Source of the DNA: Aeromicrobium camelliae
Lineage (GTDB): Bacteria; Actinomycetota; Actinomycetes; Propionibacteriales; Nocardioidaceae
Direction of reading: 5' to 3'
DNA: 64,000 bases
Assembly: GCF_003850045.1 (NCBI RefSeq)
Contig: NZ_RQJX01000005.1
Span: 1-64,000 of the forward strand
The position numbers and the translations under genes were made by a program. Below the pieces are notes generated by a model. The model did not search any database. It was not told the DNA's origin and saw nothing but the letters and a program-made list of their open reading frames with translations. Of this stretch, positions 8,179-62,630 are shown piece by piece. Within the stretch, counting starts at the first letter, position 1. Every line of letters starts with the position of its first letter.

Positions 8179-9192
8179 GTGGATCTCACCCTGGCCATGG
8201 TGATCGCGGTCGTCGTGATCGCGCTCGTGTTCGACTACACGAACGGCTTCCATGACGCCGCGAACGCCATCGCCACGTCGGTGTCGACACGCGCTCTGAC
8301 GCCGCGCGCCGCGCTCGCGATGGCGGCGATCCTCAACTTCGTCGGGGCCTGGCTGGGGGTCGGCGTCGCGCAGACGATTCAGGAGATCATCCAGATCGAG
8401 GCGGCACCGGGGGAGGGGTCTGCCCACGCGCTGACGATCGTCCTGGCCGCGCTCGTCGGCGCGATCACCTGGAACCTCATCACCTGGTACTTCGGCATCC
8501 CGTCCTCGTCCTCGCACGCCCTCATCGGCGGCATCGTCGGCGCCGGCGTCGCCTCGGCCACGACGGTCAGCTGGGACATCCTCGTCAACAAGGTCGCGAT
8601 CCCGATGGTCGTGTCGCCTGCGGTGGGCTTCCTGGGCGCGTATCTGCTGATGGTCGCCATCATGTGGGCGTTCCGCAAAGCGCGTCCGGTCCGGGTGAAC
8701 CGCGGCTTCCGTCTCGCGCAGACCGTCTCGGCCGCCGGCATGGCGCTCGGGCACGGCCTGCAGGATGCACAGAAGACGATGGGCATCATCGTGCTCGCCC
8801 TCGTCGCCGGCGGCCTGCACGACGGCAACGACGTGCCGTTCTGGGTCATCGTCGCGGCCGCCACGGCGATCGCGGCCGGCACCTACTCGGGCGGGTGGCG
8901 GATCATGCGCACCCTCGGTCGGCGGATCATCGAGCTCGACCCGCCCAAGGGCTTCGCGGCGGAGGCGACCGCGGCGTCCGTGCTGTACGTGATGGCGATC
9001 GGCCTGCACGCGCCGGTGTCGACGACGCACACCATCACGTCCGCGATCATGGGTTCGGGCGCGACGAAGCGGTTCAGTGCCGTGCGCTGGGGAGTGGCGC
9101 AGGGCATCGTCGTCGCGTGGGTCATCACGATCCCCGCCGCCGCCACCGTCGCCGCCCTCTTCTACTTCATCGCCCGCCTCTTCCTCCCGTAG
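8179..9192 (+). CDS. pit: PiT-family inorganic phosphate permease
   Basis: 337 residues with about 9-10 membrane helices. PiT proteins import phosphate as a metal-phosphate complex with protons. The inverted-repeat signature is visible twice: DYTNGFHDAANAIAT near residue 17, and HGLQDAQKTMG in the second half. In the second copy the usual Asn before Asp-Ala is replaced (LQDAQ), a mild variation. FGIPSSSSHALIGG and APVSTTHTIT are the conserved SSSSH/STTH loops. The start is a GTG 3 nt after the DUF47 gene. The long hairpin element that begins at 9209 follows. Confidence 0.93.
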   Translation: MDLTLAMVIAVVVIALVFDYTNGFHDAANAIATSVSTRALTPRAALAMAAILNFVGAWLGVGVAQTIQEIIQIEAAPGEGSAHALTIVLAALVGAITWNLITWYFGIPSSSSHALIGGIVGAGVASATTVSWDILVNKVAIPMVVSPAVGFLGAYLLMVAIMWAFRKARPVRVNRGFRLAQTVSAAGMALGHGLQDAQKTMGIIVLALVAGGLHDGNDVPFWVIVAAATAIAAGTYSGGWRIMRTLGRRIIELDPPKGFAAEATAASVLYVMAIGLHAPVSTTHTITSAIMGSGATKRFSAVRWGVAQGIVVAWVITIPAAATVAALFYFIARLFLP

Positions 9193-9208
9193 CGAGGCGC
9201 GGCGCGGT

Positions 9209-9446
9209 TTACCAGGTTACGTAGGTTTCTTGTCACTTCTCCGGGCGAACTTCGCTCGAGAAGTGGCAAGAAACCTGGTGGGGTCGACGAGAGTGCGAGC
9301 TGAGACCGGGACGTCCGGGTCAGGCGTTCGGGCCGGCCGGCCGAGGCTCGCGCGCGGTGAGCTGGCCGCGACGTCTCGAGATTTTCCCTCACTTCACCGG
9401 GAGAACTCACCCGGAGGAGTGAGGGAAAACCTACGTAACCTGGTAA
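9209..9446. repeat. 238-bp element with 20-bp terminal inverted repeats and two internal hairpins
   Basis: The ends are perfect 20-bp inverted copies (9209-9228 and 9427-9446; core ACCAGGTTACGTAGG against CCTACGTAACCTGGT). Inside, 9223-9241 and 9258-9276 form a 19-bp stem with one wobble pair and a 16-nt loop. Near the other end 9382-9393 pairs perfectly with 9418-9429, and CCGGG (9397-9401) pairs with CCCGG (9410-9414). The two hairpins resemble each other (CACTTCxCCGGGxGAACT cores). The element fills the whole gap between two convergent genes. It could be a non-autonomous MITE-like element, a tandem of two terminators, or an extreme bidirectional terminator. There is no ORF in it. Confidence 0.75.
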
Positions 9447-9450
9447 TCCG

Positions 9451-10734
9451 TCAGGCTCCGAGCACGCGCGCGAGGTAGGGGTTGGTGAAGCGGCGGTCCG
9501 GATCGGCGGCGTCGCGGACGGCGCGGAAGTCCTCGAAGCGCGGGTACAGGCGCGCGAAGTAGTCGGCGTCGAGCGTATGCAGCTTGCCCCAGTGCGGCCG
9601 ACCCTCATGCGCGACGAAGATGTCCTGCGCCGCGGCGAAGTACCGCTGGAAGTCGACGCGGTGGTACTGGTGCACGGCGACGTAGACGTTGTCGCGCTCG
9701 TGCCCCGTGGAGAGCCAGACGTCGTCCGCCGCCGTGAACCGCACCTCGATCGGGAAGCCGACGAACTCGTCTCGTCGACCGAACCACCGCTGCAACTCTC
9801 TGATGACGTCCGCGGCGGCCGCCCGCGGCATCGCGAACTCCGACTCTCGAAACCGCACGTCACGCGGCGAGACGAACACGGCGTACGAATGGTCGATGTA
9901 CTCGCGCGCCCCGAGCGTCGAGCCGGAGATCGCGTTCAGCCGCGGGATCAGCGCGGGACGGGCGGCCGACAACCGGTTGACCCGCTCGTAGACGGTGTTG
10001 GAGAGAAACCGATCGTCGAGCCACGAACGCCAGCGGGGCAGCGGCGCGCGCTCCGTCCCCTCCGGCACCCGGTTGTTGCGCTTCGTGAGCGCTTTCTCGG
10101 TGTGCGGGAACCAGTAGAACTCGAAGTGGTCGTTGCCGTCGACGAGATCGTCGAGACCGGCGAGCACCTCCGGCAGCGGCATCGGCGCCTCGCGCGCGCG
10201 CAACAGGAACGCGGGCACACACTGCAGGGTGACCTCGGTGACGATGCCGAGCGCCCCCAGCCCGACCCGTGCGGCGCCGAACCACGGGTGCGCCTCGTTG
10301 ATCTCGACGACCGAGCCGTCGCCGATGACGAGCTGAACGCCCACGACCGCGGCTGCGATGCCGTGCAAGCGTCCGCCGGTGCCGTGGGTGCCGGTCGAGA
10401 TCGCGCCGGCGACCGACTGCGGGTCGACGTCGCCGAGGTTGGGCAGGGCGAGCCCGAGCCGCTGCAGGTGCGGGTTCAGCTCGCGCAGCGAGATCCCCGC
10501 CTGCACCCGCACGCGCCCGGTCGCCGGGTCGTGGTGCAGTACGCGGTTCATCCGGTCGAGCCGCAGCTGCACGCCTTCAGTCGCGGCGATGGGCGTGAAC
10601 GAGTGGCTCGCGCCGACGGCCTTCACCGTCGGGTGGGACCGCACGAGGGTGGCGACCTCCTCTGTGCTCGCCGGGTGCGCGACGAGCGCCGGGGTGGCGG
10701 TGACGTTGCCGCCCCAGTTGGTCCACGTGATCAT
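9451..10734 (-). CDS. FAD-dependent D-arabinono-1,4-lactone oxidase-type enzyme
   Basis: 427 residues of the vanillyl-alcohol-oxidase superfamily, in the aldonolactone oxidase / alditol oxidase branch. The FAD-binding domain carries VGASHSFTPIA near residue 40; His44 is in the position that covalently binds FAD in many relatives. DVDPQSVAGAISTGTHGTG follows near residue 105. The C-terminal part has the HWGKLHTL motif of ALO enzymes. It would oxidise a sugar lactone or alditol with oxygen; the substrate is not determinable. The ATG at 10734 overlaps the stop of the upstream gene by 4 bp, so translation is coupled. The two genes are often neighbours in actinobacteria. Confidence 0.88.
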   Translation of the reverse strand: MITWTNWGGNVTATPALVAHPASTEEVATLVRSHPTVKAVGASHSFTPIAATEGVQLRLDRMNRVLHHDPATGRVRVQAGISLRELNPHLQRLGLALPNLGDVDPQSVAGAISTGTHGTGGRLHGIAAAVVGVQLVIGDGSVVEINEAHPWFGAARVGLGALGIVTEVTLQCVPAFLLRAREAPMPLPEVLAGLDDLVDGNDHFEFYWFPHTEKALTKRNNRVPEGTERAPLPRWRSWLDDRFLSNTVYERVNRLSAARPALIPRLNAISGSTLGAREYIDHSYAVFVSPRDVRFRESEFAMPRAAAADVIRELQRWFGRRDEFVGFPIEVRFTAADDVWLSTGHERDNVYVAVHQYHRVDFQRYFAAAQDIFVAHEGRPHWGKLHTLDADYFARLYPRFEDFRAVRDAADPDRRFTNPYLARVLGA

Positions 10735-25760: not shown

Positions 25761-25798
25761 TGGCCGTGATCACCGGGCTTTCCCGGTGATCACGGCCA
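25761..25798 (-). terminator. Strong terminator of the coiled-coil membrane protein gene
   Basis: A perfect 17-bp stem (25761-25777 with 25782-25798, core GGCCGTGATCACCGGG) and a CTTT loop. On the minus strand it is followed by TTTCTG, so it ends transcription of the gene at 25825 before it reaches the ssu promoter. Confidence 0.85.
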
Positions 25799-34072: not shown

Positions 34073-34100
34073 CGCCCCCCACCCGGGGACGGCTCCGCCG

Positions 34101-34164
34101 CGAGATGTGGTCGGTTTTGTGTCACCCGGACCGGACTCGGTGACCCGGAAGTGACCACATCTCG
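34101..34164. repeat. Nested intergenic palindrome
   Basis: CGAGATGTGGTC (34101-34112) pairs perfectly with GACCACATCTCG (34153-34164), and inside it GTCACC (34121-34126) pairs with GGTGAC (34139-34144). It lies 29 nt after the SRPBCC gene, where it may end transcription; no U-tract follows. Confidence 0.65.
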
Positions 34165-34250
34165 GGCCGGAGGCCGTCGCCGTGCGGGGAGGCGCCCGCC
34201 TGCGTAGCGTCGATCGCGAAGCCATCCGCCCCAGCAGAGGAAGGACGATC

Positions 34251-37747: not shown

Positions 37748-39421
37748 ATGAGCCAGTTCGACTACGACGTCGCGGTCATCGGCTCCGGTTTCGGCGGGAG
37801 CGTGACGGCGATGCGGCTGACCGAGAAGGGCTACCGCGTGGCCGTCCTGGAGGCGGGCCGCCGCTTCGCCGACGACGAGCTGCCGCGCACGTCATGGGAC
37901 GTGCGGCGCTACCTCTGGGCGCCGTGGGCGCGGTGCTTCGGCATCATGCGCATCACCCTGCTGCGGGACGTGCTCATCGCGAGCGGCGCCGGGGTCGGGG
38001 GCGGTTCGCTCGTCTACGCCAACACGCTCTACGAACCCGGCGAGCCCTTCTTCCGCGACCCGCAGTGGGCCGACATCACCGACTGGCGGGCCGAGCTCGC
38101 GCCCCACTACGCCCAGGCGCGGCGCATGCTCGGCGTCGCCACCTACCCGGGCTGGACAGTCCCGGATCGGTTGCTCGCCGAGATCGCCGACGAGATGGGG
38201 GCCGGAGACACCGTGCATCGCGCGGATGTCGGCGTGCTGTTCGGCGACCGGCCCGGCGAGGAGGTCGCGGACCCGTTCTTCGGCGGGAGCGGACCACGGC
38301 GACGCACCTGCACCGAATGCGGCTCATGTATGACCGGCTGCCGCGTGGGGGCCAAGAACACGCTGGTCAAGAACTACCTGCACCTGGCGGAGCAGGGCGG
38401 GGCGGAGGTGCATCCACTGACCGCGGTCACCGACGTGCGGCCGATGCCGGGCGGCGGCTACCGACTGCGGACCCGGCACAGCGGACGACCCTGGCAGCGA
38501 CGCACGCTGCGGGCCGAGCAGGTCGTCTTCGCCGGGAACGCGCTGAACACCCAGACGCTGCTCCACCGACTGCGGCGCCGGTCGCTGCCGCGGCTCTCAT
38601 CGCGGATCGGCGTGCTGAGCCGGACGAACTCCGAGGCGGTGCTGACGGCGCGAGCCGGCGAGCGCGCCGCGGACCACACCGCGGGGCTGGCCATCACCTC
38701 GTCGTTCCACCCCGACGAGCACACGCACGTCGAGCCCGTCCGGTACGGTCCGGGATCGGGCCTCATCGGGCTGCTCAACGCCCACCTCGTCGATCCGGTC
38801 GAGGGTGTACGGCGGTGGCGCGCCGCGATCCGGCAGTACCGCAAGCTGGGCGCCCGAGCGGCGCTGAGTCTGCATCGGCCGGGGCGTTGGGCGGAGCAGT
38901 CGATCGTGCTGCTGACGATGCAGTCGCTCGACAACTCGATCACGACGTTCCTACGGCGGCGGCCGTGGGGGTTGCGGCTCACCAGCCGCCAGGGCACGGG
39001 GGAGCCGAACCCGGAGTGGATTCCGGTGGCCCATCAGGTCGCGCGCCGACTGGCCGAGAAGGTCGACGGCGTGGCGGGCGGCTCGATCGCGGACCTCGTC
39101 GGCATCCCGATGACGGCGCATTTCATTGGCGGGTGCGCGATCGGCACCGGCCCGGACTCCGGGGTCATCGATCCCTACCAGCGCGTGTTCGGCTACGAGG
39201 GCCTGCACATCGCCGACGGTTCCGCGATCAGCGCCAACCTGGGGGTCAATCCCTCGCTCACGATCACCGCCCAGGCCGAGCGGGCGATGTCCTTCTGGCC
39301 GGTCAAGGGCGAGCCGGACCCGCGCCCGCCCCTCGGCGCCGCGTACCGGCGTCTCGATCCCGTCCCTCCGCGCACTCCGCTCGTCCCCGATCACGCTCCC
39401 GCCGCCCTCCACTGGGCCTGA
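37748..39421 (+). CDS. GMC-family oxidoreductase (cholesterol-oxidase/ChoD-like)
   Basis: 557 residues. FAD-binding [13 protein letters not shown] at residue 11, then [19 protein letters not shown] with the second flavin contact, a Cys-rich segment [21 protein letters not shown] in pieces near residue 190 (four Cys, ferredoxin-like CxxCxxxC), and the C-terminal GMC end with HFIGGCAIG and [15 protein letters not shown]. It resembles mycobacterial ChoD and would oxidise a sterol-like or secondary alcohol to a ketone, a natural substrate supplier for the divergent BVMO. The ATG at 37748 follows TAGTGT by 8 nt. The large frame extension upstream to 37241 is antisense to tetR and not coding. Confidence 0.87.
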
Positions 39422-39422
39422 A

Positions 39423-39488
39423 CCCAGATGTGCGCGCAATCCGCGTACCGCGGGCCCCTTCGGTGCGCGGATTGCGCGCAAATCTGGG
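39423..39488. repeat. 28-bp stem-loop after the GMC oxidase gene
   Basis: The arms 39423-39450 and 39461-39488 pair over 28 positions with one mismatch and one wobble (core TGCGCGCAATCCGCG against CGCGGATTGCGCGCA) around a 10-nt loop. It starts 2 nt after the GMC stop codon and is the terminator candidate for that gene, though no U-tract follows. Confidence 0.75.
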
Positions 39489-39499
39489 GTCTCGCCGGG

Positions 39500-52485: not shown

Positions 52486-52521
52486 CAGACGTCCTGAGGG
52501 CTGGAGCCCTCAGGACGTCTG
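52486..52521. terminator. Bidirectional terminator
   Basis: A perfect 16-bp stem (52486-52501 with 52506-52521, CAGACGTCCTGAGGGC) with a TGGA loop between the convergent lipoprotein and fprA genes. Confidence 0.85.
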
Positions 52522-62584: not shown

Positions 62585-62630
62585 GCACGACGAAGGGCCC
62601 CGGCGCACTCGCCGGGGCCCTTCGTCGTGC
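62585..62630. terminator. Bidirectional terminator of the aldarate operons
   Basis: A perfect 21-bp stem (62585-62605 with 62610-62630; core GACGAAGGGCCCCGGCG) with a CACT loop between convergent genes; it starts right after the dehydrogenase stop codon. Confidence 0.9.

Follow-up and report, generated by a model that had tools for sequence, protein, structure and literature searches.

In the window, the whole 64,000-nt stretch of Aeromicrobium camelliae DNA analysed (positions 1 to 64,000 of contig NZ_RQJX01000005.1), a 244-bp element at 9206-9449 lies between the convergent genes for a PitA-type phosphate transporter and an FAD-linked oxidoreductase (Table 1). The perfect 20-bp terminal inverted repeats described in an earlier note are present (TTACCAGGTTACGTAGGTTT at 9209-9228 and AAACCTACGTAACCTGGTAA at 9427-9446), and the arms reach 3 bases further on the outside (GGT..TCC here, GGA..TCC in other copies), making 22 of 23 positions complementary. 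Both internal stems claimed in that note were also recovered, the first pairing 9223-9241 with 9258-9276 (19 nt, 95%) and the second pairing 9379-9404 with 9407-9432 (26 nt, 85%), and the element fills the convergent gap as had been proposed.

The predicted RNA fold of the element has a minimum free energy of -150 kcal/mol compared with -97 kcal/mol for shuffled sequences (z = -11.1; 0 of 200 shuffles as low), and it is the longest hairpin within the window. No intrinsic terminator (a GC-rich hairpin followed by a T run) was found at the element, and no Rfam family matched it above the gathering score. Elsewhere in the window, the hairpins at 25761-25798, 52486-52521 and 62585-62630 are ordinary intergenic, GC-rich and terminator-like, and do not resemble the repeat families.

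Table 1. Positions of the element, its parts, the adjoining genes and two further solo hairpins in the window
Feature	Position	Strand	Remark
PitA-type phosphate transporter gene	8179..9192	+	stop 13 bp ahead of the element
Whole element, probable gene-less two-hairpin derivative of a palindromic unit bearing a putative nuclease gene	9206..9449	.	
Left terminal inverted repeat, GGTTTACCAGGTTACGTAGGTTT	9206..9228	+	
Left inner hairpin, 19-nt stem	9223..9276	.	aligns without gaps to the left ends of gene units
Left subterminal block	9273..9289	+	has a homologue inside the gene units' left hairpin (CCTCGCGAAGTCGGGG in G060)
Spacer, likely position of the putative nuclease gene in gene units	9290..9369	.	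judged from alignment of both ends
Right subterminal block, GACGTCTCGAG	9370..9380	+	compare G061 solo, GACGTCCCGAG
Right inner hairpin, 26-nt imperfect stem	9379..9432	.	aligns without gaps to the right ends of gene units
Right terminal inverted repeat, GGATTACCAGGTTACGTAGGTTT on the minus strand	9427..9449	-	
FAD-linked oxidoreductase gene, convergent	9451..10734	-	stop 1 bp past the element
Solo hairpin, second family, GAGATGTGGTCGGTTTTG..	34100..34165	.	gene-bearing copy at G000:C37:18401 (this genome)
Solo hairpin, third family, GAACCCAGATGTGCGCGC..	39420..39492	.	TGA-interrupted gene-bearing copy at G000:C38:117132 (this genome)

Dispersed copies and gene-bearing units

The earlier note had proposed looking for copies in the genome and its relatives, and the ends proved to be dispersed in both. 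A pattern search with the 20-mer end, allowing up to 3 mismatches, gave 25 occurrences in this genome and 0 in the reversed control. The family has about 14 copies here, mostly 88-bp hairpins, plus fragments; most copies are hairpins of 82-88 bp, and two are compound. Most near-complete copies have a stop codon no more than 35 bp away; they occupy convergent gaps or separate tandem genes, and none is in a divergent gap. A half-element consisting of the right end only (L063, 1441-1519, and L243) sits in the divergent gap upstream of prfB, with an identical length of 79 bp here and in the nearest congener, G023. A covariance model detected related hairpins in 15 of 48 other congeners, nearly always exactly 88 bp long and with species-specific arms. 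Scanning 84,980 species for the paired ends returned 7 scattered matches in unrelated taxa, close to the chance expectation, and the exact ends are therefore not widespread.

At 22 congener loci, GTTTACC-like ends akin to those of the window element bracket a single gene (three of the 22, with variable ends, were assigned by eye). Eleven such gene units could be delimited in eleven species, and all measure 1220-1262 bp, with a terminal inverted repeat and an inner hairpin at each end and one gene inside. In G061, the same terminal repeat bounds a ladder of sizes (88, 118-119, 139 and 201-214 bp and, once, 1246 bp), of which the 1246-bp unit holds a single 331-aa gene; the homologues in G049 and G060 are likewise bracketed by the hairpin versions of their own genomes. 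The left (84 bp) and right (80 bp) ends of the window element aligned without gaps to 10 of the 11 units, for example with 53/84 and 46/80 identities. For each end the score equalled or exceeded the best of 2000 shuffles, and it was higher in nearly all cases. Since both ends align to gene units, the window element is best read, from these alignments, as such a unit minus its gene, and not as chance neighbours or a duplicated terminator.

An inverted duplication of a terminator, which the earlier note had offered as an alternative, is thus not borne out: one hairpin corresponds to the left end of the gene unit and the other to its right end, and two-hairpin forms of about 200 bp recur in G061. 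An origin from two decayed neighbouring 88-bp copies was considered and dropped, as the forms of about 200 bp and the gene units share subterminal blocks. The suggestion of a MITE-like passenger is supported, in that the element is non-autonomous and multi-copy and carries the ends of the congeners' gene units; no classical transposase was among what was found. The earlier note had proposed looking for a transposase with matching ends; a gene-bearing parent unit was found, and its gene encodes a putative nuclease and no known transposase.

Neither this genome nor G023 has a gene of the cognate clade, although this genome contains about 14 well-kept copies. Loss of the gene here after the copies had spread is the simplest reading. 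The assembly comprises 40 contigs and is 100% complete, so it is unlikely, but not impossible, that the gene was missed.

The protein encoded by the units

The N-terminus of the G061, G049 and G060 proteins matched the AbiEi_4 winged helix at 25.4-33.9 bits (curated cut-off 25; the G061 match lies just above it), and PADLOC labelled the N-terminal half AbiEi. The C-terminal domain of some members matched REase_MTES_1575 (PF18741) and DUF559 (PF04480) and contains invariant E, D, E and D residues; in relatives, the PF18741 matches fell below the cut-off and the PF04480 matches included one case just above it. REase_MTES_1575 is a Vsr-fold nuclease domain (PMC3710099). These weak profile matches and the conserved E/D residues point to a putative endonuclease of the Vsr-fold/DUF559 type (PD-(D/E)XK-like). 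Sequence searches found no convincing relative in the PDB, and the protein had no HUH/Y1 match.

A profile of the protein had matches in 46 of 49 genomes, with up to 9 copies each and three in the genome of the window, while phage records gave no match and plasmid records very few. At a locus common to G061 and G049, the nuclease-like proteins are 56% identical compared with 89% for the adjacent aldolase Fba, and the nuclease-like protein is thus fast-evolving. Next to fba, which encodes a class II aldolase, lie gene units of G061, G049 and Arthrobacter (L259, L266, L362), the Arthrobacter one on the other side of the gene; this adjacency is possibly due to chance.

Known AbiEi proteins bind promoter inverted repeats. 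The AbiEi-like N-terminal domain would accordingly fit an operator-like role, with the flanking hairpins autoregulatory and the dispersed copies serving as a regulon or as decoys. We consider this very unlikely, because the repeats stand on both sides of the gene, the outermost arms delimit the unit, and the dispersed copies occupy gene 3' ends instead of promoters. The AbiE type IV toxin-antitoxin system shares with the units the N-terminal winged-helix domain (PF13338, PADLOC AbiEi profiles) and differs from them in three respects: the delimited units have no room for an AbiEii partner, a nuclease-like domain is fused to the winged helix, and dispersed hairpins flank the gene. Vsr, REase_MTES_1575 and DUF559 nucleases are matched by the C-terminal domain, whereas for them a partnership with a repeat family is undescribed in the literature searched.

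Site histories and other hairpin families

The nearest congener, G023 (pitA 96% identical), revealed a mixed history across the element sites: at some a diverged orthologue of the copy remains, at others the gap has become shorter, and at others again a hairpin from a different family is present. Because of this mixture, fixed terminators alone would not account for the repeats, nor would recent insertions alone. In the pitA/oxidase gap itself, G023 has a hairpin of another family, resembling that at 34100-34165. The earlier note would have taken a lone copy kept at one and the same position in all relatives as the sign of a terminator; this gap does not show that pattern, although some other element sites do keep an orthologous copy. 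Other species carry several of the solos at the orthologous sites, which makes the pattern partly vertical.

Inspected copies showed no visible target-site duplication, and no clean pair of empty and filled sites with target marks was recovered. One gap, in which both flanks align, holds an 88-bp solo in G061 and a 1262-bp gene unit in G016. An intergenic gap that carries the element in six species (L108, L123, L127, L129, L131, L097) suggests a preferred or repeatedly overwritten site; a different gap carries it in three. The arms in these two gaps are mostly typical of their species, and the paired arms usually fit each other better than they fit the arms of other species.

Dispersal of the families belonging to this genome's own nuclease-like genes was assessed in a 454-kb sample. 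Two of them have gene-less solos in it, among them the one of each family in the window (34100-34165 and 39420-39492), and the family of the third own gene had none there. The family at 39420-39492 had five further matches in 390 kb of this genome. Gaps in G009 orthologous to this genome's element sites (L247-L256) contain other repeated hairpin families (GCGGTAGACCATCAACC, GCGGTGACTTACGCACC, GGTTGTGGCCC), several of which resemble the ends of G009 nuclease-like genes.

Positions beside stop codons, the absence of near-complete copies from divergent gaps, very stable folds and the compensating arm changes in some copies at orthologous sites would all suit cellular bidirectional terminators or mRNA 3' stabilisers maintained by selection, with the protein acting as a binding regulator and nothing moving. 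Against such a role, which we judge unlikely, stand the missing U-tract terminator, the different hairpin family at the window gap in the nearest congener, the species-specific arms that match each genome's own gene unit, and the alternation of gene unit and solo at one site.

Generality, proposed mechanism and known counterparts

The association of gene and hairpin was compared with 55 control genes, the cross-genome null being spoiled by orthologous loci. At 45 of 52 nuclease-gene loci, the flanking inverted repeats scored above the maximum of the controls (median 60 vs 24; p = 6e-18). Dispersed hairpins matched the gene unit of their own genome with a mean of 72.8, compared with 35.7 after permutation (1 of 2000 permutations). 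A tree of 67 proteins placed the 22 that have GTTTACC-like ends together in a single clade with 100/100 support, and end types (GGTTTACC or GCGGTG type, about 85 bp) changed 5 times on that tree compared with 27.8 times when shuffled. Arthrobacter sp. StoSoilB13, a member of another genus, has two homologous genes, both flanked by hairpins. Its two large plasmids contain these hairpins at 10 and 40 places, and they are absent from all other plasmid records. A distant homologue in Tsukamurella lacks a flanking repeat.

One alternative is a conventional MITE family that an unrelated DDE transposase mobilises, with the AbiEi/nuclease gene as a captured passenger (e.g. for defence or as a toxin-antitoxin). 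Terminal inverted repeats and a deletion ladder are typical of MITEs, and AbiEi profiles are catalogued as defence proteins. The element shares with MITEs its terminal inverted repeats, short length, lack of an ORF, multiple copies and an internal deletion series from a gene-bearing unit. We nevertheless find this explanation quite unlikely: eleven units in different genomes all span 1.22-1.26 kb around one gene and leave no room for a transposase gene, different protein clades carry different ends, and the arrangement holds at most of the loci compared. The pattern scans made gave no longer element with matching ends, no DDE transposase parent was found, target duplications were not seen at the copies inspected, and each end is itself a hairpin.

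Our preferred reading, which we regard as probable, takes the window element for a non-autonomous form, without its gene, of a putative nuclease unit with palindromic ends; these ends would have been copied into or over gene-end hairpin sites, and the cognate gene would have been lost here. The winged helix would bind the palindromic ends, and the nuclease may nick or cut the extruded hairpins. Repair or replication could then copy the ends into, or over, other gene-end hairpin sites, and such copying or overwriting would leave no visible target duplication, comparable to what has been proposed for REP/RAYT. Internal deletion of the gene unit would give rise to the 244-bp and 88-bp solos, which may be retained wherever they do no harm, or where a stable 3' hairpin is of use in a convergent gap. 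The cognate gene would later have disappeared from this genome. Movement by the nuclease is the step that we infer from this arrangement.

RAYT genes are known for inverted flanking repeats, retained position, co-divergence and fast evolution (PMC2817692). The organisation and co-divergence seen here resemble those described for RAYTs: palindromic repeats, like REPs and REPINs, are dispersed extragenically, the cognate gene lies between two inverted copies, and the repeats co-diverge with a fast-evolving, essentially chromosomal protein, here rare in plasmid and phage searches. Actual membership in a REP/RAYT or IS200/IS605-type system is hardly credible. The genome has no Y1 transposase (PF01797), in a search whose control was positive in 5 of 14 genomes, and the partner protein combines an AbiEi winged helix with a putative Vsr-fold/DUF559 nuclease in place of an HUH/Y1 transposase. 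The ends also differ, being about 85 bp long (terminal repeat plus inner hairpin) where REPs have 20-40 nt and GTAG/CGTC heads, and several families coexist per genome. The missing Y1 enzyme and the different end structure led us to reject this assignment.

The system instead looks like a second, unrelated counterpart of REP/RAYT repeats. Our confidence is evenly divided on a broader proposal, that of a new class of mobile or homing DNA which probably extends across the actinobacteria. In this class, a nuclease with an AbiEi winged helix and a Vsr fold would spread its own cognate hairpin ends through the gaps at gene 3' ends and overwrite them there. Each genome would thereby hold several co-existing, rapidly turning-over populations of hairpins that serve as its gene-end hairpins, a non-HUH counterpart of REP/RAYT. 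The open-access literature searched contained no description of AbiEi/DUF559/Vsr-type proteins tied to dispersed palindromes.

To our knowledge, REP repeats have so far had one kind of partner, the RAYT transposases. The units described here display a REP/RAYT-like ecology with an unrelated putative nuclease: a cognate gene between inverted palindromes, gene-less copies at gene ends and fast co-divergence. The proposed mechanism would explain why the convergent gaps of these genomes hold different hairpins in different species, and it gives a testable role to a protein family whose only profile matches are AbiEi-like or DUF559-type and which is multi-copy in the genus. It would also provide a second, independent case for studying how partnerships between repeats and enzymes persist in bacteria.
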